A stretch of 42,144 nucleotides of DNA from a virus, in the IMG/VR virus record IMGVR_UViG_3300025929_000028, positions 1-42,144 of that record; one strand, given 5' to 3'. Of this stretch, positions 4,116-16,058 are shown one piece after another. Each line of letters starts with the position of its first letter. Positions within the stretch are counted from its first letter, which is position 1. Under the pieces are notes generated by a model. That model was given only the letters and a program-made list of their open reading frames with translations. It did no database searches and was not told where the DNA came from. A program made the translations under genes and the position numbers.

Positions 4116-4835
4116 GTGGACCTCACGCTTCCGCTCAACGATGTCTTCGGGCCTACGATCCAGGGCGAGGGACCGTACATGGGCCGAGTGGTCAACTTCG
4201 TGCGACTGGGTCTCTGTAACTTGCACTGCAAGCAGTGTGACACGAAGCAGACCTGGGACACGTCGCAGTATGATTTGAAGAAGGAGAACCCTGCGACCGA
4301 TGTTAGCGAGATCGTCAACCGTGTTAAGGCACTGCATGGCAACCAGGCGATCGTAGTCATTTCTGGTGGAGAGCCTCTCATGCACCAGGATAAGGCAGGG
4401 TTCAGGCAAATGCTTAGGGAACTGAACATGCTCGACTACAACGTACACATCGAGACCAATGGTACGCGAATGCCTCGTACCGAGGTAGCGAACCTGGTCC
4501 AACACTTCTCAGTATCCCCTAAGATCACCTCAGCGCTTATCTCCTCGAAGGACGAAGAGTCGAAGCGCATCAAGATGGCAACGCTGCACCAGTTCGCACA
4601 GTATGCCAAGCTGGACAAGGCTTGCTTCAAGATCGTCTGCGCGACACCTGAGGACGTCGACGAGGCTAACGCGTTGCGCCTGGCGCTGAACCTGTTCGAA
4701 GAGGACTTCTGGATCATGCCTGCGGGTCAGGGAGCAGGAGTTCTCGACTACAATACGAAGAAGATCCTAGATCGTGTTCTGCACCACGGCATGAACTTCT
4801 CGCCGCGCCTTCACATCTTGACTAGGGTTAAGTGA
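4116..4835 (+). CDS. queE: 7-carboxy-7-deazaguanine synthase (radical SAM)
   Basis: QueE converts 6-carboxy-tetrahydropterin to 7-carboxy-7-deazaguanine (CDG), the third step of preQ0 synthesis. The 239-residue length fits the family. Residues 11-25 hold the FGPTIQGEGPYMG signature. The radical-SAM cluster motif is C34-x3-C38-x2-C41, followed by DT, and the SAM-binding SGGEP is at 83-87. All expected residues are present, so the enzyme should be active. The start is GTG 4116, just after the previous stop. With queC, queD and folE further downstream the phage encodes the whole route to preQ0. The gene lies at the end of the first early transcript; the next gene has its own promoter. Confidence 0.93.
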   Translation: MDLTLPLNDVFGPTIQGEGPYMGRVVNFVRLGLCNLHCKQCDTKQTWDTSQYDLKKENPATDVSEIVNRVKALHGNQAIVVISGGEPLMHQDKAGFRQMLRELNMLDYNVHIETNGTRMPRTEVANLVQHFSVSPKITSALISSKDEESKRIKMATLHQFAQYAKLDKACFKIVCATPEDVDEANALRLALNLFEEDFWIMPAGQGAGVLDYNTKKILDRVLHHGMNFSPRLHILTRVK

Positions 4836-4850
4836 CTAAGAAAGTCACCG

Positions 4851-4880
4851 TTGTTTTCCCTAGATGAGACCCTATATAAT
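4851..4880 (+). promoter_or_regulatory. Sigma70-type promoter before the nuclease-recombination operon
   Basis: -35 TTGTTT (4851-4856), 18-base spacer, -10 TATAAT (4875-4880). The spacer end GAGACCCTA resembles the promoter at 1814 (GAGACCATA). Transcription would begin near 4887 and give a leader of about 40 bases. Confidence 0.8.
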
Positions 4881-4926
4881 AGATGTGTAAGTAAGTCAGT
4901 GAACCAAGTGAAAGGTTCGAGCGCAC

Positions 4927-6177
4927 ATGCTCCTGACTGTTCAGGACTATATCGACAAGAAGCTGGTACATTCGCTGCACACCAGTGAGTCGAAGTCCTT
5001 CCGCGGTTGCCGACGTAGGTGGAACTGGATCTTCCGAGAGTTCTGGTACCCTCGTACGACTGCGAAGCCTCTCGAGTTCGGCACGGCATACCACGTGGCA
5101 ATGGAAAAGTTCTACGAGCCCGAACTGTGGGACAAGCCACGTGATGTCGTAACGACCCTAGCTGTTCAGGCCTTCCGTAAGAAGTGCCGCGAGCAGCTAC
5201 TGGATTACTGCACTGCAAACAACATCACTCTCGACAGCGTCGATCCTGAGGTCAAGTCCGACTACGAAGAGCGTATGGCTCTAGGTGAAGGTATGATTCA
5301 GTACCACGCCGAAGAGGTCTCACCCGCTCTGGACAAGGACTTGATCCCTCGCAAGGTCGAGATCGCCTTCGAAGTCCCAGTTGTCAATCCTGACACGGGC
5401 GACCAGCTCTGGTGCAAGTGCAACACGTGCTGGACGCGGTACATCGCCTACTGCGAGATGTACTACCCTCCCACGCGCGATGGCATGTGGCATCGAAACA
5501 ACTTCAAGGGCCTGCCCGTCACTTACGGTGGTCGAATCGATGCCATCTTCGAGGGTGTTGACGGTCGCTACTGGATCGTGGACTGGAAGACCGCTGCCCA
5601 GCTCGCCGGCGACAGGGATGAGTTCCTGCTCATCGACGACCAGATCACTCGCTACTGCTGGGCCCTGTGGAGTATCGGCATTCGCATCGCCGGCTTCATC
5701 TACCACGAGCAGAAGAAGGCCTTCCCCGAAGAGCCCGAGCCCATGTCACGCCGTCGTCTGGGATGCCTCTACAGTGTGTCGAAGTCGCAGAACGTCAACT
5801 ACGACACGTACCTGAGGACGGTACAGGAAAACGATAACGGCGCGTATGTCATGGGCGCATACGACGAGTTCCTGGAGTGGCTGAAGGAGAACGGTGGCGT
5901 CTTCCATCAGCGGTACGTCGTCCACAGGAACGAGACCGAGCTGAAGCAGGCCGCTCGGAATGTGTACATGGAAGCGGTCGAGATGACGAATCCCGACCTG
6001 CTGATCTACCCCAACGCTGGCCGCTTCGGTTGTAACACGTGCGCGTTCAGGCAGCCATGCATCGGCGTTAACCAAGGCGAAGACTTTCTGTACACCCTGT
6101 CGACGATGTTCGACAAGCGTCGATACCACTACTGGGAGGACAAGGTGCCCAGTACTGAGTCCAAGGGTAATGAGTGA
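4927..6177 (+). CDS. Cas4/RecB-like PD-(D/E)XK nuclease with four-cysteine cluster
   Basis: 416 residues. The nuclease core is seen as FGTAYH (51-56), RIDAIFEG with D205, IVDWK with D219 and K221, and QITRY (Q239/Y243), which are motifs I, II, III and IV of the RecB/Cas4 family. One Cys near the N-terminus (C28) and three at the C-terminus (C369, C372, C378) match the 4Fe-4S staple of Cas4, AddB and Dna2. An extra Cys-rich insertion (LWCKCNTCW, about 161-169) is not typical. Likely a 5'-3' or end-processing exonuclease that makes ssDNA for recombination, working with the Sak4-like and DUF669-like proteins next to it. There are no cas1 or cas2 genes, so a CRISPR role is unlikely. Confidence 0.88.
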   Translation: MLLTVQDYIDKKLVHSLHTSESKSFRGCRRRWNWIFREFWYPRTTAKPLEFGTAYHVAMEKFYEPELWDKPRDVVTTLAVQAFRKKCREQLLDYCTANNITLDSVDPEVKSDYEERMALGEGMIQYHAEEVSPALDKDLIPRKVEIAFEVPVVNPDTGDQLWCKCNTCWTRYIAYCEMYYPPTRDGMWHRNNFKGLPVTYGGRIDAIFEGVDGRYWIVDWKTAAQLAGDRDEFLLIDDQITRYCWALWSIGIRIAGFIYHEQKKAFPEEPEPMSRRRLGCLYSVSKSQNVNYDTYLRTVQENDNGAYVMGAYDEFLEWLKENGGVFHQRYVVHRNETELKQAARNVYMEAVEMTNPDLLIYPNAGRFGCNTCAFRQPCIGVNQGEDFLYTLSTMFDKRRYHYWEDKVPSTESKGNE

Positions 6178-6260
6178 GTCATAAGCTCTACCGGGTGTAT
6201 TGCATCCTCTGCGTTATCGTAGCAGTCCTCGTCTTTACCTACGGAGCGTATCGTGCCTGA
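6174..6260 (+). CDS. 28-residue membrane mini-protein
   Basis: GTG at 6174 overlaps the nuclease stop (GTGA) and the stop TGA at 6258 lies inside the start of the next gene. The product begins MSHKLYRVY and has one hydrophobic helix (CILCVIVAVLVFTY). It fills the only gap between two tightly packed genes and is coupled on both sides, which supports it being real. Function unknown. Confidence 0.55.
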   Translation: MSHKLYRVYCILCVIVAVLVFTYGAYRA

Positions 6261-7026
6261 AGTGTTAACACCGTCCAGTTTCGCTGGCCTGAAGGTAGTG
6301 AAGGCAGGCCAGCGAGAGTCAAACCTGAACATCATGATCTACGGTGACAGCGGTGTCGGTAAGACACGCCTCGCCGGATCAGCTGATGACGTCCCTGAGA
6401 TGCGTTCTGTAGTGTGCGTCGACTTCGAGGGTGGAACCGAAACCCTCAAGCACAGCTACCCCAACGTCGATACCATTCGTGTGACATCTTGGAAGGATGT
6501 CCAGAACGTCTACAACGAGCTGTATGCAGGCAATCACAAGTACAGAACGATCATTCTGGATTCGTTGACTGAGATCCAGAAGTTCAACATGTACAACGTC
6601 ATGCAGCGGCTCATCGAGAAGGATTCGAACCGCGACGAAGACGTTCCGTCCATGCGCGAGTGGGGCGTCAACCTCGAGCAGATGCGGAAGTTCGTTCGAG
6701 CCTTCCGTGACTTGCCCTATAACACTATCTTCACCTGCCTGATGAAGTCCGAGAAGGACGCACGTACTGGTAAGCTCGTCAAGGAGCCTTACCTATCAGG
6801 CAAGCTGTCCAAGGAGGTCGCTGCCTTCCTCGACATCGTCGTCTTCCAGTACATGCGTGAGATGGAAGTTGACGGAGAGATGAAGCAGCAGCGTCTCCTC
6901 CTGTCGCAGGCAACGGACACATGTACTGCGAAGGACCGTACCGGCAAGCTTCCGCAGGTTATGGTCGAACCGACCATGGCGGAGATCATGAAGTACATCA
7001 ACGGTGAAAACGAAACGGGAAACTAA
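6253..7026 (+). CDS. Sak4-like RecA-fold ATPase (recombination)
   Basis: 257 residues, P-loop ATPase of the AAA_24/Sak4 type. Walker A is GDSGVGKT at 31-38, an acidic strand CVDFEGG follows at 55-61, and Walker B is IILDSLTE at about 100-107. Members are RecA-like single-strand annealing or ATPase proteins of phage recombination systems and are commonly found, as here, between a RecB/Cas4-type nuclease and an ssDNA-binding-type protein. The start is GTG 6253. Family assignment is strong; that it promotes annealing rather than ATP-dependent loading is inferred. Confidence 0.85.
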   Translation: MPEVLTPSSFAGLKVVKAGQRESNLNIMIYGDSGVGKTRLAGSADDVPEMRSVVCVDFEGGTETLKHSYPNVDTIRVTSWKDVQNVYNELYAGNHKYRTIILDSLTEIQKFNMYNVMQRLIEKDSNRDEDVPSMREWGVNLEQMRKFVRAFRDLPYNTIFTCLMKSEKDARTGKLVKEPYLSGKLSKEVAAFLDIVVFQYMREMEVDGEMKQQRLLLSQATDTCTAKDRTGKLPQVMVEPTMAEIMKYINGENETGN

Positions 7027-7027
7027 C

Positions 7028-7492
7028 ATGGATCTCAGGGTCAACTTCTCCTCCGAAGAGGCTGCCAGCGAGGCGCGCAAGCCCATCCCTCGAGGCGAGT
7101 ACCACGTCAAGATCACGGACATCGAGTTGAAGGAGTCGCAGTCCGAGAAGAACTTCGGCAAGCCCTACTGGGGCATGGAGTTCACTATCCAGGACGGTGA
7201 GTACAGTGGCAAGAAGGTCTGGACGAACTGCATGCTCTTCAACGGTGCACTCTACACCTTCTCGCAGCTGATGAAGGCTCTGGGCTACGACGTCAGCGCC
7301 GGTGAGTTCGAGGTTCCCGACCCTGAGGACCTGATCGGTCAAGACGTCATCGTGCGCGTCACGATCCGCCCTGAGCGCACGGTCGGCGACAAGACCTATG
7401 ACGAGAGCAACGAGGTCAAGTCCATCAAGGCCTGGACCGAGAGCGTCAAGGTCGGAGGCACGACCAAGAAGTCCGACTCGCTCCTGCCGTAA
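7028..7492 (+). CDS. DUF669-like, probable ssDNA-binding/recombination partner
   Basis: 154 residues from ATG 7028, chosen over the GTG at 7004 because 7004 lies within the previous gene and lacks a ribosome site. The pattern (PRGEYHVKITDIELKESQ, then GKPYWGMEFTI, GKKVWTN, LMKALGYDV and VIVRVTIRPER) matches the beta-rich DUF669 family that accompanies Sak4-like ATPases in phage genomes and is thought to act like an SSB. The gene directly follows the ATPase. The biochemical role is inferred from context. Confidence 0.8.
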   Translation: MDLRVNFSSEEAASEARKPIPRGEYHVKITDIELKESQSEKNFGKPYWGMEFTIQDGEYSGKKVWTNCMLFNGALYTFSQLMKALGYDVSAGEFEVPDPEDLIGQDVIVRVTIRPERTVGDKTYDESNEVKSIKAWTESVKVGGTTKKSDSLLP

Positions 7493-7499
7493 CCGTCCT

Positions 7500-7566
7500 G
7501 AAGTGGGTGGGGGCTCTCCCCGTTAGCGGATTCCTCAAACGACCGAATATGGTGCCCACCCACTTC
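7500..7566 (+). other. Long inverted repeat between recombination and replication genes
   Basis: A perfect 12-base inverted repeat, GAAGTGGGTGGG (7500-7511) and CCCACCCACTTC (7555-7566), encloses a 43-base loop that begins with a second small G/C stem (GGGG-CTCT-CCCC). It is followed by TTATAG, not a U-tract, so it is a poor intrinsic terminator. It ends 24 bases before the primase start and could be an attenuator, an mRNA stability element or a structured leader. Confidence 0.6.
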
Positions 7567-7589
7567 TTATAGTCCGAGAGGGATGGTAA

Positions 7590-9785
7590 GTGCCAATCTT
7601 CACAGCTTTCTTTTCCCATCTCTTCGGGCAGGCGGAAGGGTATCTCTGCATCGCGTTCATCAAGGCTGGGATGAAGGGCTTCCAGGAGGAATACCACGCC
7701 TGGCCTGCTGAGAAGGAGAAGGTCGAACAACGTATCGACCTGATGTTGGGAACGCACAACGTCTACTTCTGTCCTCAGTTGCTATCCCGCCCCAAGAGAA
7801 TTAAGGACAGCGTTGCGGTCTGTACCAGTGCCTGGTCCGATCTGGATGAGTGCCACCCTAGCAACTGCATTGTTAAGCCAACATTCGTCGTAGAGTCTTC
7901 GCCCAATCGTTACCAGGCGTTCTGGGCATTTGAGGACCCCGTTGATCCGTTTGATGCAGAGAGTATCAGCAAGCGGATCGCGTATTACCATGCCTTCCAG
8001 GGGGCTGACAAGTCAGGCTGGGATCTCACCCAGTTGATGCGCGTACCTGGTACCTACAACAGGAAGCCAGAGTACGACAACGTCCCTGTCAAGCTCATCG
8101 AGCATAGGTCGAACAAGTACCGTATTGACGACTTCGGCAAGTATCCGGCCCTCGCTGAGACTTCAGGTGTAGAAGAGCAACTCCCCGAAGCCCTACCCAA
8201 CCTGACAGGCGAAGAGCTTCTGGAGAAGTACGACAACGAAGTTGCACCACAGGTCTTCGTACACTTCTCCATGGAGCCGGACAGAGGCGTCGACTGGAGC
8301 AAGACCCTATGGGCGCTGGAAATGCAGTGCTTCGAAGCAGGAATGAGTAAGGAGGAAGTATTCATTGTTGCTCGTGATTCCGCGTGCAACAAATTCAGAC
8401 GTGACGGCCGACCGGAACTACAACTCTGGAAGGACGTTTGTAAGGCATGGCAGAGGCACCAGGAGAACCAGAAGCTTCTAGCGCCTGCTGAGATCCACCT
8501 CGGCCCGCTTCTTATCGACCGCGAACGAGAAGAGCTCCAGGGCTTCACTACGTTCGTGGACGACTACATCGAATGGGCCAGCTCGCTCGGTGACGCTGCC
8601 AAGCAGTATCACCAGGCGGGAGCGTTTGTAATCCTGTCAGCCTTACTAGGCGGCGCTGTGAGGTTGCCCACCTCATTCGGCACGTTCAAGCCAAACCTGT
8701 GGTTTATGATCCTGGCAGATACCACGTTGACCCGCAAGTCAACAGCGATGGACATTGCTATGGATCTGCTCGAGGAGGTAGACAGCAGTGCCATTCTTGC
8801 GACCGATGGCTCGATCGAGGGACTGATGTCTTCCCTCTCTACCAGGCCTAGCCAACCGTCGATCTTTCTTCGTGACGAGTTCAGTGGCCTACTGGACGCG
8901 TTGAACAAGAAGGACTACTACGCGGGCATGGCGGAGACTCTTACCAAGTTGTATGACGGTAAGATGCAGAAGAAGATCCTACGGAAAGAAACAATCGAGG
9001 TCAAGGATCCTGTTCTAATCCTGTTTGCAGGAGGCATTAAGAATAAGATCTGTAGCCTACTTACGAGTGAGCACGTCAGTTCGGGTTTCATCCCCCGCTT
9101 CGTGTTCATCACGGCAGAATCAGATGTGACACGTGTCCAGCCGCTAGGCCCTCCTACGGCTAAGGATTCCACAGGGCGCGACACTATTCGTGATGCTATG
9201 AAGCGAATGCGTGAGCACTACTACACAGAGCCGACTCTTAAGCGGGAAGGCTCGAGAATCGTGTATCAGGGTGCGCAGACGTGGAATGCACAGCTGACGC
9301 CTGAAGCCTGGGCACGGTACAATCTGCTAGAGCAGGACATGATGAAGGCAGGTCTTAAGGCACTACAGCCTGAGATCATGACGCCTACATACGACCGTTT
9401 GTGCAAGTCAGGTCTGAAGGCAGCAGTACTAGCTGCTGCAAGTCGGAAGCTTGTGGATCCGAGTCAGACCATTGAGGTAGAACTCATCGATGTCCTGTAT
9501 GCAATCCGGTTCGTAGAAGAGTGGCGCGACTATACTAACCAGGTCATCAATGGCGTCGGCAGCACAACCAACGAACGTGAACTGGAAAAGGTGTTGGCCT
9601 CGATCAAGGCTACGCCCGGCATCTCACGTTCGCGGCTAATGCAGGCACACCACCTACACTCAACAAATGCAGGTAATATCTTCCAAACCCTCATGCAGCG
9701 TGGCCTAGTCGAAATGAAGAAGGTCGGGAAGGGAGAACGTTACTTCCCGACCGAAAAGAAGAAGGTGAAGGTTACCCTTGACTAA
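7590..9785 (+). CDS. Primase-polymerase fused to SF3/DUF3987-like helicase
   Basis: 731 residues. The N-terminal 170 look like a RepB/AEP primase: HNVYFCP (57-62), catalytic DLD at 84-86, SSPNRYQAFW (103-112) and the signature RVPGTYNRKP (151-160). The C-terminal half resembles DUF3987-type helicases, with a Walker A position at 376-385 that is degenerate (ADTTLTRKST instead of GxxxxGKS) and a Walker B-like SIFLRDEFSG at 424-433. It probably primes and unwinds at the phage origin. The weak P-loop glycines make ATPase activity less certain. Start is GTG 7590 with GAGGGATGG upstream. It overlaps queC by eight bases. Confidence 0.82.
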   Translation: MPIFTAFFSHLFGQAEGYLCIAFIKAGMKGFQEEYHAWPAEKEKVEQRIDLMLGTHNVYFCPQLLSRPKRIKDSVAVCTSAWSDLDECHPSNCIVKPTFVVESSPNRYQAFWAFEDPVDPFDAESISKRIAYYHAFQGADKSGWDLTQLMRVPGTYNRKPEYDNVPVKLIEHRSNKYRIDDFGKYPALAETSGVEEQLPEALPNLTGEELLEKYDNEVAPQVFVHFSMEPDRGVDWSKTLWALEMQCFEAGMSKEEVFIVARDSACNKFRRDGRPELQLWKDVCKAWQRHQENQKLLAPAEIHLGPLLIDREREELQGFTTFVDDYIEWASSLGDAAKQYHQAGAFVILSALLGGAVRLPTSFGTFKPNLWFMILADTTLTRKSTAMDIAMDLLEEVDSSAILATDGSIEGLMSSLSTRPSQPSIFLRDEFSGLLDALNKKDYYAGMAETLTKLYDGKMQKKILRKETIEVKDPVLILFAGGIKNKICSLLTSEHVSSGFIPRFVFITAESDVTRVQPLGPPTAKDSTGRDTIRDAMKRMREHYYTEPTLKREGSRIVYQGAQTWNAQLTPEAWARYNLLEQDMMKAGLKALQPEIMTPTYDRLCKSGLKAAVLAAASRKLVDPSQTIEVELIDVLYAIRFVEEWRDYTNQVINGVGSTTNERELEKVLASIKATPGISRSRLMQAHHLHSTNAGNIFQTLMQRGLVEMKKVGKGERYFPTEKKKVKVTLD

Positions 9786-10470
9786 CATCGCAGTCGTGAG
9801 CGGCGGCATGGACAGCGTGACGATGCTGTACGCGCTCGCGGAAATGGGTCAGCCCGTGGAGGCTCTGTCTTTCAACTACGGGCAGAAGCACAAGAAGGAA
9901 CTCGACTATGTTCAGTTCCACGTCGACAACCTCGGCAGCCTGGACTGGAAGATCATCGACCTGACCAGCGTGGCACAGCTGCTGACGAGGTCAGCTCTGG
10001 TCGGTGAGCGTGAGGTGCCCGAGGGTCACTACGAGCACGAGACCATGAAGCAGACGGTCGTACCCAACCGCAACATGATCATGGCCAGCATCGCTGCTGC
10101 CGCCTGCATCAACGAAGGTGGGCGACTCCTCGGTCTGGGTGTGCATGCAGGTGACCACGCCATCTATCCAGACTGCCGACCGGAATTCATCAGGTCGCTC
10201 GAGGTCACGCTGCATGTGGCAAACGCTGGCTTCATCCACCCGCAGTTCGAGATCTACTCGCCGTTCGTGCACATGACCAAGGCTGAGATCGTGCGCATGG
10301 GTCAGCAGTACGATATCGACTATTCACAGACGTGGTCGTGCTACAAGGGAGGAGAGGTGCACTGCGGCAAGTGTGGTACCTGCGTCGAACGCAAGGAAGC
10401 GTTCGCGATTGCACGAGTCGAGGACCCGACCAAGTACGAGGACGACCTTCGAACGGACGAGGCGTACTGA
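9778..10470 (+). CDS. queC: 7-cyano-7-deazaguanine (preQ0) synthase
   Basis: QueC turns CDG into preQ0 with ATP and ammonia, the last step of the pathway. 230 residues, full length. The PP-loop SGGMDS is at 8-13, VPNRNMI lies mid-protein, and the zinc site is C188, C196, C199 and C202 in the CGKCGTC region. There is no glutamine amidotransferase extension, so this is plain QueC, not the Gat-QueC fusion that makes the archaeosine-type base. Start TTG 9778 is chosen because it is preceded by AAGGTGAAGG and gives the canonical short N-terminus; it overlaps the primase gene by eight bases. Confidence 0.94.
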   Translation: MTNIAVVSGGMDSVTMLYALAEMGQPVEALSFNYGQKHKKELDYVQFHVDNLGSLDWKIIDLTSVAQLLTRSALVGEREVPEGHYEHETMKQTVVPNRNMIMASIAAAACINEGGRLLGLGVHAGDHAIYPDCRPEFIRSLEVTLHVANAGFIHPQFEIYSPFVHMTKAEIVRMGQQYDIDYSQTWSCYKGGEVHCGKCGTCVERKEAFAIARVEDPTKYEDDLRTDEAY

Positions 10471-10763
10471 TGACCGCACCGCTGAACGTGACGCAGAAGC
10501 TCGCCACTGCGAAGAGCATGCAGAACACTGGAAGCAACCTCAGTGACTTCCAAGCGTGGCTGGGTACCATTCCGGAGACTTCGGGACAGTACCCGGGACA
10601 GCAAGTGGCGATCGACGGTCCGACGACCGGCAGCATCTACATCCGACGTCCCTACCAGATGACGCTACTGCTGAATCAGACCGACTGGCTAGTTATTACC
10701 AACGCTTCGGTCCCGCTGATGAGTAAGATGGTTGACCAGGACTACCAGGCATCCTGGGGATGA
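10470..10763 (+). CDS. Unknown protein between queC and queD
   Basis: 97 residues, ATG sharing one base with the queC stop (TGATG). The sequence is beta-rich and uncharged in its centre (DGPTTGSIYIRRPYQMTLLLNQ), with no cysteine, P-loop or membrane motif. It is cotranscribed with queC and followed by a hairpin that ends the unit. A structural or accessory role in the modification pathway is possible only by association. I do not recognise the family. Confidence 0.68.
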   Translation: MTAPLNVTQKLATAKSMQNTGSNLSDFQAWLGTIPETSGQYPGQQVAIDGPTTGSIYIRRPYQMTLLLNQTDWLVITNASVPLMSKMVDQDYQASWG

Positions 10764-10767
10764 CAGG

Positions 10768-10814
10768 AAGCGCGGACAATCGAGAGGTTAAGCAAGTAGC
10801 GATTGCCCGCGCTT
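10768..10814 (+). terminator. Probable terminator or attenuator after the queC unit
   Basis: Inverted repeat AAGCGCGGACAATCG (10768-10782) and CGATTGCCCGCGCTT (10800-10814), 15 bases with a single A/C mismatch and a 17-base loop, followed by TTGTCC. It is a stable GC-rich stem with only a short T run, so partial termination is likely. Confidence 0.6.
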
Positions 10815-10824
10815 TGTCCATAGC

Positions 10825-10907
10825 TAGACTTTACATAGACAGCTTTTGTCCAAGCTCTGCGTAGAGAGCTAACGGCTGAAGTTGATCTTGATTAGACTTA
10901 AGGAGAC
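10825..10907 (+). repeat. Phased TAGAC array with shared core, copy A
   Basis: TAGAC at 10825-10829 and 10836-10840 (11 bases apart), then the core GATCTTGATTAGACTT at 10884-10899, whose TAGAC (10893) is followed by GAGAC at 10903, 10 bases on. The same core and spacing occur at 16687 and 27215. It lies between the hairpin at 10768 and queD. A protein-binding (operator-like) site is inferred. Confidence 0.7.
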
Positions 10908-10913
10908 TTGCTG

Positions 10914-11441
10914 ATGCAAGGGCAGGTGACTCTCGCTGTAGAACACAACTTCGAGACCGCACACAGGTTGCCTTTCCTGGGCGGCAAGTGTGAGAACTTG
11001 CACGGTCATTCGTGGAAGGCGAAGTTCCATCTTCAGGCCTACGACATGCCTGGTGGCATGGACGAGAACGGCATCAGCGTCGAGTACGGTTCGGTCAAGA
11101 AGGTCATTCGCCAGTGGATCGATACGTACCTGGACCATGGCATGATGATCGGGCACGACGACCGTCTGATCGACGCCATCTGGAATGATGGCTGCAAGAT
11201 CTTCGTATTCGGTACTGGTACCAATTCCGAAGACGTCGACAACTATGAGATCGTCTCTGGATACAAACAGAGGCCCTGGCCCACTGTGGAAGCTGTGGCC
11301 GAGATGCTCTGTGTCAAGATCCAGGAACAGTTCGGTGAGGCCTTGTGGGTTATAGGAGTGGAGGTACAAGAGACATCAGTGAACTCGGCAACCTATACCC
11401 AGGCAGTCCCCTACAACAAGACTGTAGAGGTTGGTGCGTAA
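10914..11441 (+). CDS. queD: 6-carboxy-tetrahydropterin synthase
   Basis: QueD converts dihydroneopterin triphosphate to 6-carboxy-5,6,7,8-tetrahydropterin, the second step to preQ0. 175 residues. Zinc ligands H17, H30 and H32 (NLHGHSW) and catalytic C26 are present, as are the family's PTVEAVAEML and EVQETSVNSATY near the C-terminus. Start ATG 10914 is preferred over TTG 10908 because AGGAG at 10901-10905 is eight bases upstream of the ATG and only two from the TTG. A central insertion (about 85-110) makes it longer than the usual 120-140 residues. The stop overlaps folE (TAATG). Confidence 0.92.
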   Translation: MQGQVTLAVEHNFETAHRLPFLGGKCENLHGHSWKAKFHLQAYDMPGGMDENGISVEYGSVKKVIRQWIDTYLDHGMMIGHDDRLIDAIWNDGCKIFVFGTGTNSEDVDNYEIVSGYKQRPWPTVEAVAEMLCVKIQEQFGEALWVIGVEVQETSVNSATYTQAVPYNKTVEVGA

Positions 11442-12181
11442 TGGCTGACTACGTAGACCCAGAACCGATTCAGGCAACCCTTTTCGGGGAGCAGATGCCT
11501 GTGACGGATTACACCCGCAACCTGGAACGTATCGTAGAGATGCGTGACAAGATTCCTACCTCCCACAAGGCGCCAGTGACCTTGCAGGACCAGCTGCGCG
11601 AAATCAATTCGCACGAATGGAACCCTGAGCGCACGAAGCGGTGGCTCGAAGATCCGGAGCAGCAGGCCGCTTCTTTCCTGCGTAGCATCGGGGTGGATCT
11701 CGCTTCAGAGCACCACAGGGACACACCTCGGCGTCTGGCGAACGCGATGCGTGAACTGACGGCACGTGAAGAGTTCAAGTTCACGACCTTCGAGGCTAAG
11801 TCGCAGAACATGATCACACTGGGTCCGATTCCGTTCTACACTCTCTGCGCTCACCACGTTCTGCCATTCCATGGGCATGCCTGGGTCGGATATGTTCCCG
11901 AGCAGCGCATCGCTGGTCTGTCCAAGTTCGCGCGTGCTGTGGAGTATGTGGCAAAGGGGTTCCACGTCCAGGAGGAACTCACTACTGAGATCCACCAGTT
12001 CCTGAGCGAACGGTTGGAACCCAAGGGCCTCGCAGTCGTACTGAAGGCGCAGCATATGTGCATGGAGATGCGCGGTGCTAAGGTGCCTGACGTGATCACT
12101 ACAACATCCGAAGTGTCTGGCGTCTTCGCAGACCACGACCGTACTGCGAAGCTCGAGTTCCTGGAGTGGATTCGTGACTAA
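11441..12181 (+). CDS. folE: GTP cyclohydrolase I
   Basis: FolE opens GTP to 7,8-dihydroneopterin triphosphate, the entry to both folate and deazaguanine synthesis; next to queD it clearly serves the latter. 246 residues, with about 70 N-terminal residues before the catalytic domain. Zinc ligands C136 and H139 are in LCAHHVLPFHGH, and C207 is in the HMCMEMRG motif. AGLSKFAR (158-165) is also conserved. All active-site elements are visible. ATG 11441 shares a base with the queD stop, so translation is coupled; an in-frame upstream ATG at 11345 lies inside queD and was rejected. Confidence 0.93.
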   Translation: MADYVDPEPIQATLFGEQMPVTDYTRNLERIVEMRDKIPTSHKAPVTLQDQLREINSHEWNPERTKRWLEDPEQQAASFLRSIGVDLASEHHRDTPRRLANAMRELTAREEFKFTTFEAKSQNMITLGPIPFYTLCAHHVLPFHGHAWVGYVPEQRIAGLSKFARAVEYVAKGFHVQEELTTEIHQFLSERLEPKGLAVVLKAQHMCMEMRGAKVPDVITTTSEVSGVFADHDRTAKLEFLEWIRD

Positions 12182-12536
12182 CCCTGAAGAAGTATATGAA
12201 GCGTTCCACCAGAAGGAACGCGAGACCACTGTGGAAATGCTTCTCAGTATTCTCGCACGGGACAGCCACGAAGCTTCACATCGCTGGTTCCCTGAGACCG
12301 CCGACAGTCTCGCGCATCATACGCTCGCACTCTGTGGTGAAGCTGGAGAGGTTGCGAACCTCGTCAAGAAGATCCAGCGCGGAAGCTTGGACCCCGACGA
12401 CCCTGCTGTTCGTCGCGACTTGGAGAACGAGGTCGCGGATGTCTTCATCTACCTACTCAACCTCGTAGCTATCCTCAAGATGAATCTCGGCAAGCGATAC
12501 ATGGACAAGCAGAAGTTCAACCAGAAAAGGTTCTGA
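12174..12536 (+). CDS. MazG-like nucleotide pyrophosphohydrolase
   Basis: 120 residues, all-alpha NTP-PPase fold. The metal-binding pattern is seen as CGEAGEVANLVKK (EAGE) and ENEVADVFIYLLNL (ExxxD), as in MazG-type enzymes that hydrolyse (d)NTPs to monophosphates. Phage MazG proteins are thought to lower ppGpp or trim nucleotide pools during infection. GTG start overlaps folE by eight bases, so it is part of the folE unit. Which nucleotide it uses cannot be told from sequence. Confidence 0.83.
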   Translation: MTNPEEVYEAFHQKERETTVEMLLSILARDSHEASHRWFPETADSLAHHTLALCGEAGEVANLVKKIQRGSLDPDDPAVRRDLENEVADVFIYLLNLVAILKMNLGKRYMDKQKFNQKRF

Positions 12537-12537
12537 C

Positions 12538-12831
12538 ATGGCTGACGAACAGACCCCGATGGGTATCGGCGAACTCGTGAACATGATCAGTAACGAGTTC
12601 GACCACCTCGTGATCACTCGACACAACGAGGGTGCAGACAAGTACGGACCCTTCTCCTTCATGGGCAAGAACATGTACGAGGAGGCCGCTGCCGAGTTGG
12701 CTGACCTGTGCAACTACGCACGCTACGCCTACATCAAGCTCCGCATGCTCGAGATGCAGATGGCCGACGCGATCTCTGATGCTCCGCCGGAGGAGAAGCT
12801 TCTGCACGGGTTCAAGGCTCATGGAGAATGA
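12538..12831 (+). CDS. Second MazG/NTP-PPase-like small protein
   Basis: 97 residues with a helical pattern and NMYEEAAAELADLCNYARY in the centre. The E..A.EL.DL.NY arrangement, after a KYGPFSF segment, resembles all-alpha NTP pyrophosphohydrolases that deal with dNTPs. The family link is moderate and the acidic pattern is less complete than in the gene just upstream. It starts one base after the previous stop. Together the two genes form a nucleotide-pool module inside the deazaguanine cluster. Confidence 0.62.
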   Translation: MADEQTPMGIGELVNMISNEFDHLVITRHNEGADKYGPFSFMGKNMYEEAAAELADLCNYARYAYIKLRMLEMQMADAISDAPPEEKLLHGFKAHGE

Positions 12832-12955
12832 CAAGGGAACCGGTCCGAATCCTAGTCGCTGGGGCAAGATTGTCGGACTGTGGATCACGCTTCTGGTCAT
12901 GGTACTGTTGACCGCTTTGGTCATCAAGGCAGTTCAGTACATCAACCTCTGGTAG
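12821..12955 (+). CDS. 44-residue single-pass membrane protein
   Basis: ATG 12821 overlaps the preceding gene by 11 bases. A short polar N-terminus (MENDKGTGPNPSRWG) is followed by one strong hydrophobic helix (LWITLLVMVLLTALVIKAV) and a short end. Function unknown. It sits directly before the DpdA-like gene. Confidence 0.6.
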   Translation: MENDKGTGPNPSRWGKIVGLWITLLVMVLLTALVIKAVQYINLW

Positions 12956-12961
12956 GTAACA

Positions 12962-13702
12962 GTGAAACTCGCTTTGATTCCTCCCTATAGCCAGGTGAAC
13001 TCCATCTTCAGAACCGACTATCAATTGGTTCTCCCGGAACATCTGTCGAACAAGGACTACCAGGACGCCTACATCGCTGCGCGACGGAATGGCGACTACC
13101 TGATCATGGACAATGGTGCCGCTGAGGGAAGGCTACTGTCACCTGGTGAGCTCCGTTCGATGGCACTCGGCCTGATGGTCAACGAGATCGTAGTGCCTGA
13201 TGTCCTTGGTGACATGTACGCTACGCTGCGAATGGCCAAGGAGTTCTTCCAGTTCGGTGTCGACACTCGCTTCAAGTACATGGGCGTCGTTCAGGGCCAG
13301 ACACTCGATGAATGCTGCGCCTGTGTGGAAGCCTACTACAGTGATCACGGCAACATCACCGTACTGGGCCTACCACGACATCTGATCAGTACTACCAAGA
13401 ACAAGAAGGCGCGAGCCGAACTGGCTGCGTACATCTACAGCAACTACCCTGGGTACCAGATTCACCTCTTGGGTACGAACCCTTCGTACATCAGAGAGCT
13501 GCGCGAGAACGCATACGACTTCCATGCGGCCAACGTTCGAGGCGTTGATACTTCGGCACCCTTCAACTACGCCTGGGGTGCGAAGAGTATGTTGAAGGGC
13601 GATTACTGTGGTCGTCCCGAATACTACTTCGAGATGAGCCTGCCTACTACCCAGACGCTCGACCATAACATTCAGCTACTGAAGGCATGGGTCAATGGCT
13701 GA
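12962..13702 (+). CDS. dpdA: DpdA-like DNA-guanine transglycosylase (TGT fold)
   Basis: 246 residues. It keeps the order of motifs expected for a tRNA-guanine-transglycosylase TIM barrel: DNGAAEG (50-56), EIVVPDVLGD with D80 in the position of the first catalytic Asp, GVVQGQTLDE (108-117) like the IVQGG loop, VLGLPRH (134-140) like the substrate-binding GGL loop, LLGT (169-172), and VRGVDTSAP with D196 where TGT has its nucleophile (GxD). It lacks the C-terminal zinc domain of tRNA enzymes, as DpdA proteins do. With FolE, QueD, QueE and QueC present it should replace guanine in phage DNA with preQ0. Start is GTG 12962. The identification rests on motifs and context, not on a database match. 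Confidence 0.82.
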   Translation: MKLALIPPYSQVNSIFRTDYQLVLPEHLSNKDYQDAYIAARRNGDYLIMDNGAAEGRLLSPGELRSMALGLMVNEIVVPDVLGDMYATLRMAKEFFQFGVDTRFKYMGVVQGQTLDECCACVEAYYSDHGNITVLGLPRHLISTTKNKKARAELAAYIYSNYPGYQIHLLGTNPSYIRELRENAYDFHAANVRGVDTSAPFNYAWGAKSMLKGDYCGRPEYYFEMSLPTTQTLDHNIQLLKAWVNG

Positions 13703-16058
13703 ACGTCGTCATCGGCTAGCACGGTGCGAGGACTGCGACCTCCGCGAGGGAGGTCGCTATGTCCCGTCCTCTATTCCGGAGGAACCCAATGGCATCGCAG
13801 TGGTCGGAGAAGCACCCGGAGCGCAAGAAGCAAGGGGAGGTGTTCCTTTCGTTGGACCCAGCGGGAAACTCCTCAACAGGGTCCTTACTTATTACGACAT
13901 TAGTCGACGGAATACTCTACTTACCAACACCACCTCCTGTCGACCCCCTGATAATGCTACGCCTTCCAAGCGAGCGGTGGAGTGCTGTAGACCGCGACTA
14001 CTTGATGAACTGGCTGGATCGAAGCAGCTACTGGCGCTGGGTAACACTGCCGCCCAAGCCATCCTCAACACGGGTCAGGGTATTACGGCTCTTAGAGTCG
14101 GACCGCCAAAGCCGTGCCCCACAGTGGCAGGGGCAGAAGTTGTTGCTACGTTCCACCCTGCATTCTGTCTCCGCAACGGAGATGCCTTCCCTTCATTGGT
14201 CAACGACGTGGGAAAGCTTGTGCGACAGATGCAGCCATGGCATCCCCCTCAGTATGTGGTAGCAGACGATGAAGAGTTCGCTCTTCGAGCTCTCAGGGAA
14301 GTCGAGACTAGAACAGACCGAGTTGTCGTCGACATCGAGTGTGGTATCGACAAGGACAACAGCTTCGACCACCCTAATCGGTACCAGATGCTCTGCGTGG
14401 GGCTGGGGTACGCTAAGGGTAAGGCACTGGTCGTTGGGGAGAATGCACTTAAAATACCCTCAGTAGTCGAGGCACTTAAGCGCCTTCTTCAGAAGCTGAA
14501 GATCATTGCACACAATGGCAAGTTCGATCTCGCTGGTCTGTATCCCTTGCTGGGTGACCTGAAACTCTGGTTCGATACAATGTTGGCGCATTACTGTCTT
14601 GACGAGAGGCCAGGATACCACAGGTTGAAGGACCTGGGTGTGGAGATCTTGGGCACTCCACACTGGGAACACGAGATCGATAAGTATCTCGGAGCAGGGA
14701 AGAACTATGCCACCATTCCTCGACCTATTCTGTACAAGTACAACGCCTATGACCTCGCTGTCACGTGGGACTTGGCTGAATACTTCGAAGTCGAACTCCT
14801 CAGGGAGAGGAATATCAGTCCTTCCTTCCTACCTGATGTCCCCGGTTCGACGCTCCGCGACCTGCACGACTTCCTTGTCTCTGCGGCTAATGAGCTCAAG
14901 TTCCTAGAGCTCAACGGCATTCACATCGATAGGGACTACTCACTTCAGCTTGAGGCGCAGTACATCGAGTCTCTTGATGATCGCCGAAAGGTATTCGATG
15001 CCTTTGCTGGTGACCGATGCTATGACAAGAAGGGGGGAATCAATCCGAATTCGCCTAAGCAACTCAAAGAGTACTTCGCCGACAATGGTGTGAGGACAGC
15101 TTCGACAGACGTGGATCACTGCGAAGCCATCCTCGCAAAGTTGGACTCTGACAGTGAGCTTCACAAGTTCATTACGCTCCTGCTGGAGAACCGTAAGGAA
15201 GCCAAGAAGTACGGAACATATGTCAAGGGGATCCGTGAACGTACGTATCGTGGGCGCGTATATACGACGTACTCACTTCACGGTACAACCTCAGGACGCT
15301 TGGCTTCCAAGAACCCCAACCTTCAGAACATCGACCGCGACAAGGTTATTCGACGGCAATTCAATGTGTCGAAGCCTGAAAACGTCTTCGTGCACGGCGA
15401 CTTCGCACAGGCCGAGGGCCGCGTTATCTGTACGCTGGCACGTGACGAGTACCTTCAGAGCGTCTTCGCTAACCCTGAAGCTGACCTCTTTACAGAGCTG
15501 GGCAAGAAGCTCTACCGCGGCATCACACTGAATAAGGATCAACGTGTTCGTGTGAAGGCGTACTTCTACGGACTGAGCTATGGACGTACTGCGTATACGA
15601 TCGCACAGGAGTACGGTTGGTCCGTTAGGGACACGGAACAGGATCTCGAGAACTTCCTGGATACGATTCCGGATGTTCGTAGGTGGCAGAGCGAGGTGAA
15701 GCGTCTTGTCCTGGAAGGTAACGACCTGGTTACAACGTTTGGTCGCCATCGACGTTTCGCCCTCATCACTGAAGAGAACCGAACCGATGTACTTAACGAG
15801 GCGCTGTCCTTTCTGCCTCAGTCGACTGCCAGTGACATCTGTCTGCGTGCGTTCATTCGACTCCGACCTCGTCTGCGAGGCATGGCCCACATCCGTCTCA
15901 CCATCCATGATGCCTTGGTTGCGGAATGCCATGAGGGCGATCGCGAAGCAGTTGCTGCGATCATGCAAGAGGAAATGACCCGTTCAGGTGCCGAGTGGAC
16001 GGACTACGTACCCTTCGCTGTCGACGTGAGCTACGGGAAGCACTGGGGCGAACTGTGA
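13695..16058 (+). CDS. Uracil-DNA glycosylase / 3'-5' exonuclease / DNA polymerase A fusion
   Basis: 787 residues, three domains. Residues 1-180 are a family 4-type UDG: C11, C14, C82 and C97/C98 for a 4Fe-4S cluster, GEAPGAQEA (38-46), PFVGPSGKLL, and HPA at 154-156. Residues 205-360 are a DEDDy exonuclease with D213/E215, N274-D278 and Y349/D353. Residues 385-787 are polymerase A: TTSGRL (531-536), motif A with D569, motif B with R617, K621, Y625 and YG 629-630, and motif C IHDA with D739. The Glu after the motif C Asp is Ala740, and Tyr625 stands where E. coli Pol I has Phe762. This is the main replicative polymerase. ATG 13695 overlaps dpdA by eight bases. Confidence 0.92.
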   Translation: MAERRHRLARCEDCDLREGGRYVPSSIPEEPNGIAVVGEAPGAQEARGGVPFVGPSGKLLNRVLTYYDISRRNTLLTNTTSCRPPDNATPSKRAVECCRPRLLDELAGSKQLLALGNTAAQAILNTGQGITALRVGPPKPCPTVAGAEVVATFHPAFCLRNGDAFPSLVNDVGKLVRQMQPWHPPQYVVADDEEFALRALREVETRTDRVVVDIECGIDKDNSFDHPNRYQMLCVGLGYAKGKALVVGENALKIPSVVEALKRLLQKLKIIAHNGKFDLAGLYPLLGDLKLWFDTMLAHYCLDERPGYHRLKDLGVEILGTPHWEHEIDKYLGAGKNYATIPRPILYKYNAYDLAVTWDLAEYFEVELLRERNISPSFLPDVPGSTLRDLHDFLVSAANELKFLELNGIHIDRDYSLQLEAQYIESLDDRRKVFDAFAGDRCYDKKGGINPNSPKQLKEYFADNGVRTASTDVDHCEAILAKLDSDSELHKFITLLLENRKEAKKYGTYVKGIRERTYRGRVYTTYSLHGTTSGRLASKNPNLQNIDRDKVIRRQFNVSKPENVFVHGDFAQAEGRVICTLARDEYLQSVFANPEADLFTELGKKLYRGITLNKDQRVRVKAYFYGLSYGRTAYTIAQEYGWSVRDTEQDLENFLDTIPDVRRWQSEVKRLVLEGNDLVTTFGRHRRFALITEENRTDVLNEALSFLPQSTASDICLRAFIRLRPRLRGMAHIRLTIHDALVAECHEGDREAVAAIMQEEMTRSGAEWTDYVPFAVDVSYGKHWGEL

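Follow-up and report, generated by a model that had tools for sequence, protein, structure and literature searches.

How do some phages come to replace every guanine in their DNA with a 7-deazaguanine, when enzymes of the kind found in phage 9g bring about partial replacement? The question is raised by IMG/VR virus record IMGVR_UViG_3300025929_000028, a linear sequence of 42,144 bases (about 55% GC) that we analyzed at its full length and refer to as the window, in which genes for synthesis of the 7-deazaguanine preQ0 are found with a gene (12962-13702) for a short relative of the transglycosylase DpdA. The window comes from a tailed phage: replication and preQ0 synthesis genes run rightward in its left 17 kb, and terminase, portal, protease, capsid and tape measure (head and tail) genes run leftward in most of the remainder. 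We infer an activity, a product, an extent of replacement and a protective effect, and consider it likely that this phage makes DNA in which the preQ0 deoxynucleoside (dPreQ0) takes the place of much or all of the deoxyguanosine (dG) and shields the genome from restriction.

A complete preQ0 pathway and a transglycosylase fold

Pfam, PHROGs and NCBIfam searches identified FolE, QueD, QueE and QueC (Table 1), through which the phage would convert GTP to preQ0. An earlier note on this DNA had claimed all four genes with their catalytic residues intact, and both the family matches and a motif check bear this out: QueE keeps CxxxCxxC at residue 34, QueC keeps SGGMDS and four zinc cysteines (Cys4), QueD keeps CxxxHGH, and FolE keeps CxHH and HxC. 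A search for homologues among the open reading frames (ORFs) of the window likewise confirmed that QueC has no amidotransferase extension and that no QueF is seen. The QueC of 9g, which is joined to a glutamine-amidotransferase (GAT) domain, aligns to the window QueC through its QueC part alone, and neither QueF (queries from Dp-1, immuto and R5C), the 9g GAT domain nor the immuto formyltransferase has a homologue among the window ORFs; plain preQ0 is therefore the predicted base.

The protein that would use this preQ0 is the product of 12962-13702. Searches with the single protein gave no significant Pfam or NCBIfam match and nothing useful in PDB, and its two weak PHROGs matches are both to families without assigned function. 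A nine-sequence profile of its family matches the solved DNA-guanine transglycosylase 7ui4 (E 8.7e-7), with D196 of the window protein aligned to the aspartate of SIDSTTP. A structure model built from a 40-row alignment (pLDDT 79, pTM 0.82; an earlier model from six close sequences had reached pLDDT 45) consists of eight strands alternating with helices. Its best solved match by VIA-align is again 7ui4 (Z 17.7, 225 residues aligned, root-mean-square deviation 3.5), followed by archaeosine tRNA-guanine transglycosylase (TGT) and bacterial TGT, and Foldseek agrees, with DpdA and TGT matches at E about 1e-6. The fold comparison that the earlier note had proposed thus yields a TGT barrel with 7ui4 as its top match, and the prediction stands. 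The bacterial DpdA of 7ui4, a DNA preQ0 insertase and the closest solved protein by both fold and profile, differs in length (413 modelled residues of a 436-aa chain) and in its partners from the bacterial dpd island, which were not seen in the window.

Invariant across the 40-sequence alignment are D50, N51, D80, T88, Q111-G112, H168, L170, G171, D196 and N236, among them the two residues, D80 and D196, that had been named beforehand as retained TGT-barrel motifs. The roles we give to D50, D80 and D196 are based on D102, D156 and D280 of the Z. mobilis TGT: by TGT enzymology and motif order, D196 is predicted to be the nucleophile, and D80 and D50 the acids of the base pocket. The enzyme would then form a covalent intermediate on D196 as it replaces guanine with preQ0, DNA with dPreQ0 for much or all of its dG would result, and this DNA would be shielded from restriction. 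The prediction of 7-deazaguanine DNA is made because a complete preQ0 pathway accompanies a TGT-fold enzyme whose nearest relative of known structure is a DNA preQ0 insertase. We count as weak support that 4-base palindromes containing G are not markedly avoided in the window.

The same genes could in principle serve queuosine supply to host tRNA, or another use of preQ0, with the TGT-like protein acting on RNA. FolE, QueD, QueE and QueC are common to the queuosine pathway, and tRNA-guanine transglycosylases come close to DpdA as matches to the fold. The protein nevertheless has 246 residues against about 350-390 in most of the matched TGT chains, it clusters with proteins of DNA-modified phages, its gene overlaps a DNA polymerase gene, and no QueF that would serve queuosine was found in the window; we regard an RNA substrate as very improbable.

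The enzyme belongs to the short branch of phage DpdA

The earlier note had likened the protein to the DpdA of Enterobacteria phage 9g and Escherichia phage CAjan, a comparison that our analysis does not sustain. As controls we used nine 9g-type or otherwise annotated phage DpdAs, chosen from matches to 9g DpdA, from the loci of 9g, RHEph26, Yong-L2-223, Dp-1, R5C, phiSM, Vibrio 2.117, Finch and PSTCR7. Profile comparison shows the short DpdAs and these controls to be homologous (E 1.5e-7), yet their signatures differ: LDN[GS] in the short proteins against DSGA[FY] in the controls, PDxL against LDxI, and GxP or similar where the controls carry GG[LM]V or SPxN. In a maximum-likelihood tree, arbitrarily rooted and with long branches, the two sets fall apart with 100/100 support, and the window DpdA shares a 100/100 clade with those of CP220 and immuto. 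The DpdA1 enzymes of 9g and CAjan share with the window a TGT barrel, a preQ0 pathway and a nearby DNA polymerase, but they lie on the separate branch, have DSGAF for the LDN motif and GG[LM]V for GxP, measure about 280-317 aa, have a clamp beside DpdA and give partial replacement. Because the window enzyme sits on the other branch, with different motifs and neighbours, the phages to compare it with are CP220, immuto and BSP7.

Members of this branch, from Campylobacter (CP220), Flavobacterium (immuto) and Bacillus (BSP7) phages, are alike in their 246-266 aa and in the motifs LDN[GS], PD, H-x-LG and D[ST], and most have preQ0 genes nearby. The window is a deeply diverged lineage added to the branch. 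Outside its own lineage its DpdA is about 19-28% identical to the other members. Distant relatives at about 21-28% identity come from Bacillus, Weizmannia, Chryseobacterium, Brevundimonas, Flavobacterium (annotated as DpdA), Cellulophaga and Campylobacter phages, and homologues adjoin preQ0 genes in other phage lineages as well; the window further differs in having no adjacent kinase, a plain QueC, and neither QueF nor a further modifying enzyme that we could find. Scans seeded with the BSP7, Youna2 and StAshley proteins found no relatives, and a hit in Gordonia phage WhoseManz was rejected as it runs antisense to annotated genes. Isoelectric point was tried as a sign of DNA binding (median 5.35 for short DpdAs, 6.32 for controls), and protein charge was left unused because the two ranges overlap. 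The Campylobacter phage CC_R7 (L106 4989-5729), a close relative of CP220, has between QueC and a thymidylate kinase a short DpdA that is 27% identical to that of CP220, an apparent gene replacement judging from the sequences.

A subfamily named DpdA3 by Cui et al. in 2023 reportedly gives complete replacement, and the short branch is probably this DpdA3. For the window itself, complete rather than partial replacement of dG is the better prediction, since its enzyme falls on the branch that contains CP220. The DNA of CP220/CPt10 is reported in PMC8306585, citing Crippen et al. 2019, to have 100% of its dG replaced by dADG, and that of 9g shows partial replacement, of up to 27% (PMC6884629).

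Gene neighbours and the level of base exchange

Whether guanine would be exchanged in nucleotides or in finished DNA was approached through gene neighbours, compared in annotated records with flanks of 4-10 kb and a handful of query proteins, four of them for sliding clamps and ParB. Thymidylate-kinase-like proteins adjoin the short DpdA in BSP7 and Youna2 (phrog_761) and in CC_R7, CP220 and immuto (phrog_2107), in phi13:1 and MA9V-3 its neighbours are P-loop kinase-like proteins that belong to one family (phrog_19196), and a deoxynucleoside monophosphate (dNMP) kinase lies 6.9 kb from it in StAshley. No dNMP kinase was found in the nine control loci. Counted by lineage, with the lineages grouped post hoc, kinases accompany 6 of 7 short DpdAs and 0 of 5 controls (one-sided Fisher 0.008, calculated by hand; 0.027 if StAshley is counted as non-positive). 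MazG-type or PRA-PH-type nucleoside triphosphate (NTP) pyrophosphohydrolases occur near the short DpdA in the window, phi13:1, L107 and immuto, and among 80 immuto-related contigs a pyrophosphohydrolase is present in 77 and a kinase in 73. Sliding clamps and ParB-like proteins show the opposite pattern, found near DpdA in 9 of 9 control loci and in none of the short-DpdA loci. An AAA_18 match among the control neighbours was set aside as probably the Dda-like helicase of R5C, the member behind the match not being shown directly. In CP220, the gene directly before the short DpdA (L012 7616-8647) encodes a fusion of HD phosphohydrolase and polynucleotide-kinase-like domain. A phosphoribosyltransferase adjoins FolE in StAshley and immuto (L010 15302-15775; L008 2840-3235) and could convert free deazaguanine base to nucleotide.

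Tentatively, and with a slight lean that stops short of an even chance, we place the exchange in the nucleotide pool, on deoxyguanosine monophosphate (dGMP), much as in the MazZ-PurZ pathway. The MazG protein of the window, proposed for this step with a specificity that we infer, would convert dGTP to dGMP; DpdA would turn dGMP into d(preQ0)MP; kinases, here borne by the host, would raise this to the triphosphate; and PolA would incorporate d(preQ0)TP, so that all dG would be replaced. For the short branch at large, the gene neighbours suggest, with the same reserve, mononucleotide transglycosylases acting on dGMP, with MazG feeding them and dNMP kinases clearing their product, and genomes copied wholly with a 7-deazaguanine nucleotide. 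The kinases beside short DpdAs in most lineages, the MazG and PRA-PH neighbours and the HD-domain protein of CP220 all favour this proposal, as does a gene layout that resembles the Z-genome cluster (DatZ-MazZ-PurZ) of S-2L-like phages. In S-2L, MazZ makes dGMP, which PurZ alters (PMC8342488), and a modified-dGTP route is mentioned by Hutinet et al. as proposed for Campylobacter phages (PMC6884629). The cluster and the window share a MazG-type enzyme beside a base-altering enzyme, and complete replacement is predicted here by analogy. They differ in that no PurZ or DatZ is seen in the window and that the window would exchange a base where the cluster synthesizes a purine; the likeness of the window MazG to MazZ is one of gene position.

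Several points weigh against the readings advanced here. No window ORF convincingly matches the kinases of the relatives, which leaves the window lineage, with MazG only, as the exception among short-DpdA phages; that MazG matches its family at modest strength and has a dCTP pyrophosphatase as its closest solved relative; and the lineage grouping behind the kinase count was made after the data were seen. We know of no TGT-fold enzyme that uses a mononucleotide, and Cui et al. in 2023 reportedly concluded that insertion is post-replicative. More generally, both the 7-deazaguanine content of this uncultured phage's DNA and the activity of the enzyme are predictions from sequence. Part of the phage sequence is missing, since the left end of the window cuts an SNF2-type helicase gene, and no terminal repeat longer than 10 bases was found in the 42,144-base record; a gene absent from this linear, left-truncated record cannot be fully excluded from the phage, and the prediction of plain preQ0 carries that caveat.

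A second possibility, which we hold to be a little less probable than exchange in the nucleotide pool, is that guanines are flipped out of finished DNA after replication, as by the DpdA of 9g and CAjan, with MazG and the kinases as ordinary pool genes. Large phages often have dNMP kinases anyway, and the window itself has none recognizable by comparison with those of its relatives. Nucleic acids are the substrates of those TGT and DpdA homologues for which the substrate is known, the closest solved structure (7ui4) is a DNA insertase, and modification in CAjan requires its DpdA (PMC6884629). Exchange in DNA accounts less readily for the reversed distribution of clamp or ParB proteins and dNMP kinases between controls and short-DpdA loci, and complete replacement, as in CP220, would be hard for a site-selective DNA enzyme to achieve.

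Our comparison sets two kinds of phage DpdA cleanly apart by their gene neighbours, which bears on complete as against partial replacement and reduces that question to one of substrate choice, dGMP or DNA, with Bacillus phage BSP7, which infects B. subtilis and has an operon of the same type, as a culturable relative. Should exchange take place in the nucleotide pool, the TGT fold would gain an activity new to it, transglycosylation of free nucleotides, and one of use in the enzymatic production of 7-deazaguanine nucleotides.

Organization of the locus and neighbouring genes

Table 1. Genes of the preQ0 and replication region of the window
Feature	Coordinates	Strand	Basis
QueE, 7-carboxy-7-deazaguanine synthase (radical SAM)	4116..4835	+	phrog_2076 E 2.6e-55; 74% identical relative in L006
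QueC, preQ0 synthase	9778..10470	+	PF06508 E 1.3e-59; TIGR00364 above cut-off
97-aa protein, function unassigned, between QueC and QueD	10470..10763	+	sequence; overlaps QueC stop
QueD, 6-carboxytetrahydropterin synthase	10908..11441	+	PF01242 E 2.2e-23
FolE, GTP cyclohydrolase I	11441..12181	+	PF01227 E 3.6e-50
MazG-type NTP pyrophosphohydrolase	12174..12536	+	PF03819 4.5e-5; phrog_229 4.9e-8; dCTP pyrophosphatase 1 structure E 1.1e-5
97-aa conserved protein, function unassigned, between MazG and DpdA	12538..12831	+	42% identical in five related contigs
Short DpdA (TGT barrel), 246 aa, proposed guanine-to-preQ0 exchange	12962..13702	+	profile match, structure model, alignment, tree
Family-4 uracil-DNA glycosylase (UDG), 3'-5' exonuclease and PolA fusion	13695..16058	+	PF03167 1e-23, PF01612 5e-9, PF00476 6e-61

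The genes had been described as dispersed among replication genes, which holds for QueE, the sole pathway gene outside a compact block, and fails for the run from QueC to PolA. There QueC, a 97-aa protein, QueD, FolE, MazG, a second 97-aa protein, DpdA and PolA are packed with overlaps or short gaps, apart from one larger gap of 144 bases before QueD, and five related contigs retain the order QueC-QueD-FolE-MazG-p12538-DpdA-PolA over the part that each of them covers, at protein identities of 42-88%. Megablast of the first 25 kb against the GenBank phage set gave no match and no near relative.

Within the block, the QueC and primase genes share 8 bases. The longest FolE frame begins with GTG at 11345, and the ATG at 11441 overlaps the QueD stop; the ATG is the more likely start because the relatives' proteins align from it. 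About 70 additional residues at the N terminus of FolE precede its catalytic domain (11441-11750). The longer frame of the 97-aa protein that follows QueC had no match in a Pfam search. The MazG protein keeps an intact ExxE...ExxD motif. Its conserved 97-aa neighbour matched no family and no structure in the searches made, and was tried as a second MazG, a relation that was not shown. Between that gene and DpdA, a possible 44-aa protein with a single membrane span (12821-12955) is suggested by the sequence.

The polymerase gene overlaps the DpdA gene by 8 bases, and the glycosylase part of its product keeps GEAPGxxE, HPA and CxxC intact. The same UDG-PolA fusion lies beside the short DpdA in BSP7, Youna2 and StAshley, and relatives of it are also carried by MW202455, PMBT14 and Serbin, phages that have genes for pyrimidine hydroxymethylase or dCMP deaminase. 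We rejected the fusion as a mark of DpdA phages, as it occurs elsewhere too; because it is found in both settings, it may mark phages with altered bases. MW202455, the Manatee Spring phage (L114), has similar replication genes (SNF2-type ATPase, PD-(D/E)XK, AAA and UDG-PolA), together with a thymidylate kinase, an NTP-PPase-like protein, thymidylate synthases and a pyrimidine hydroxymethylase; preQ0 genes are absent from the stretch shown. As far as gene content tells, the two phages possibly differ by a swapped nucleotide-modification module.

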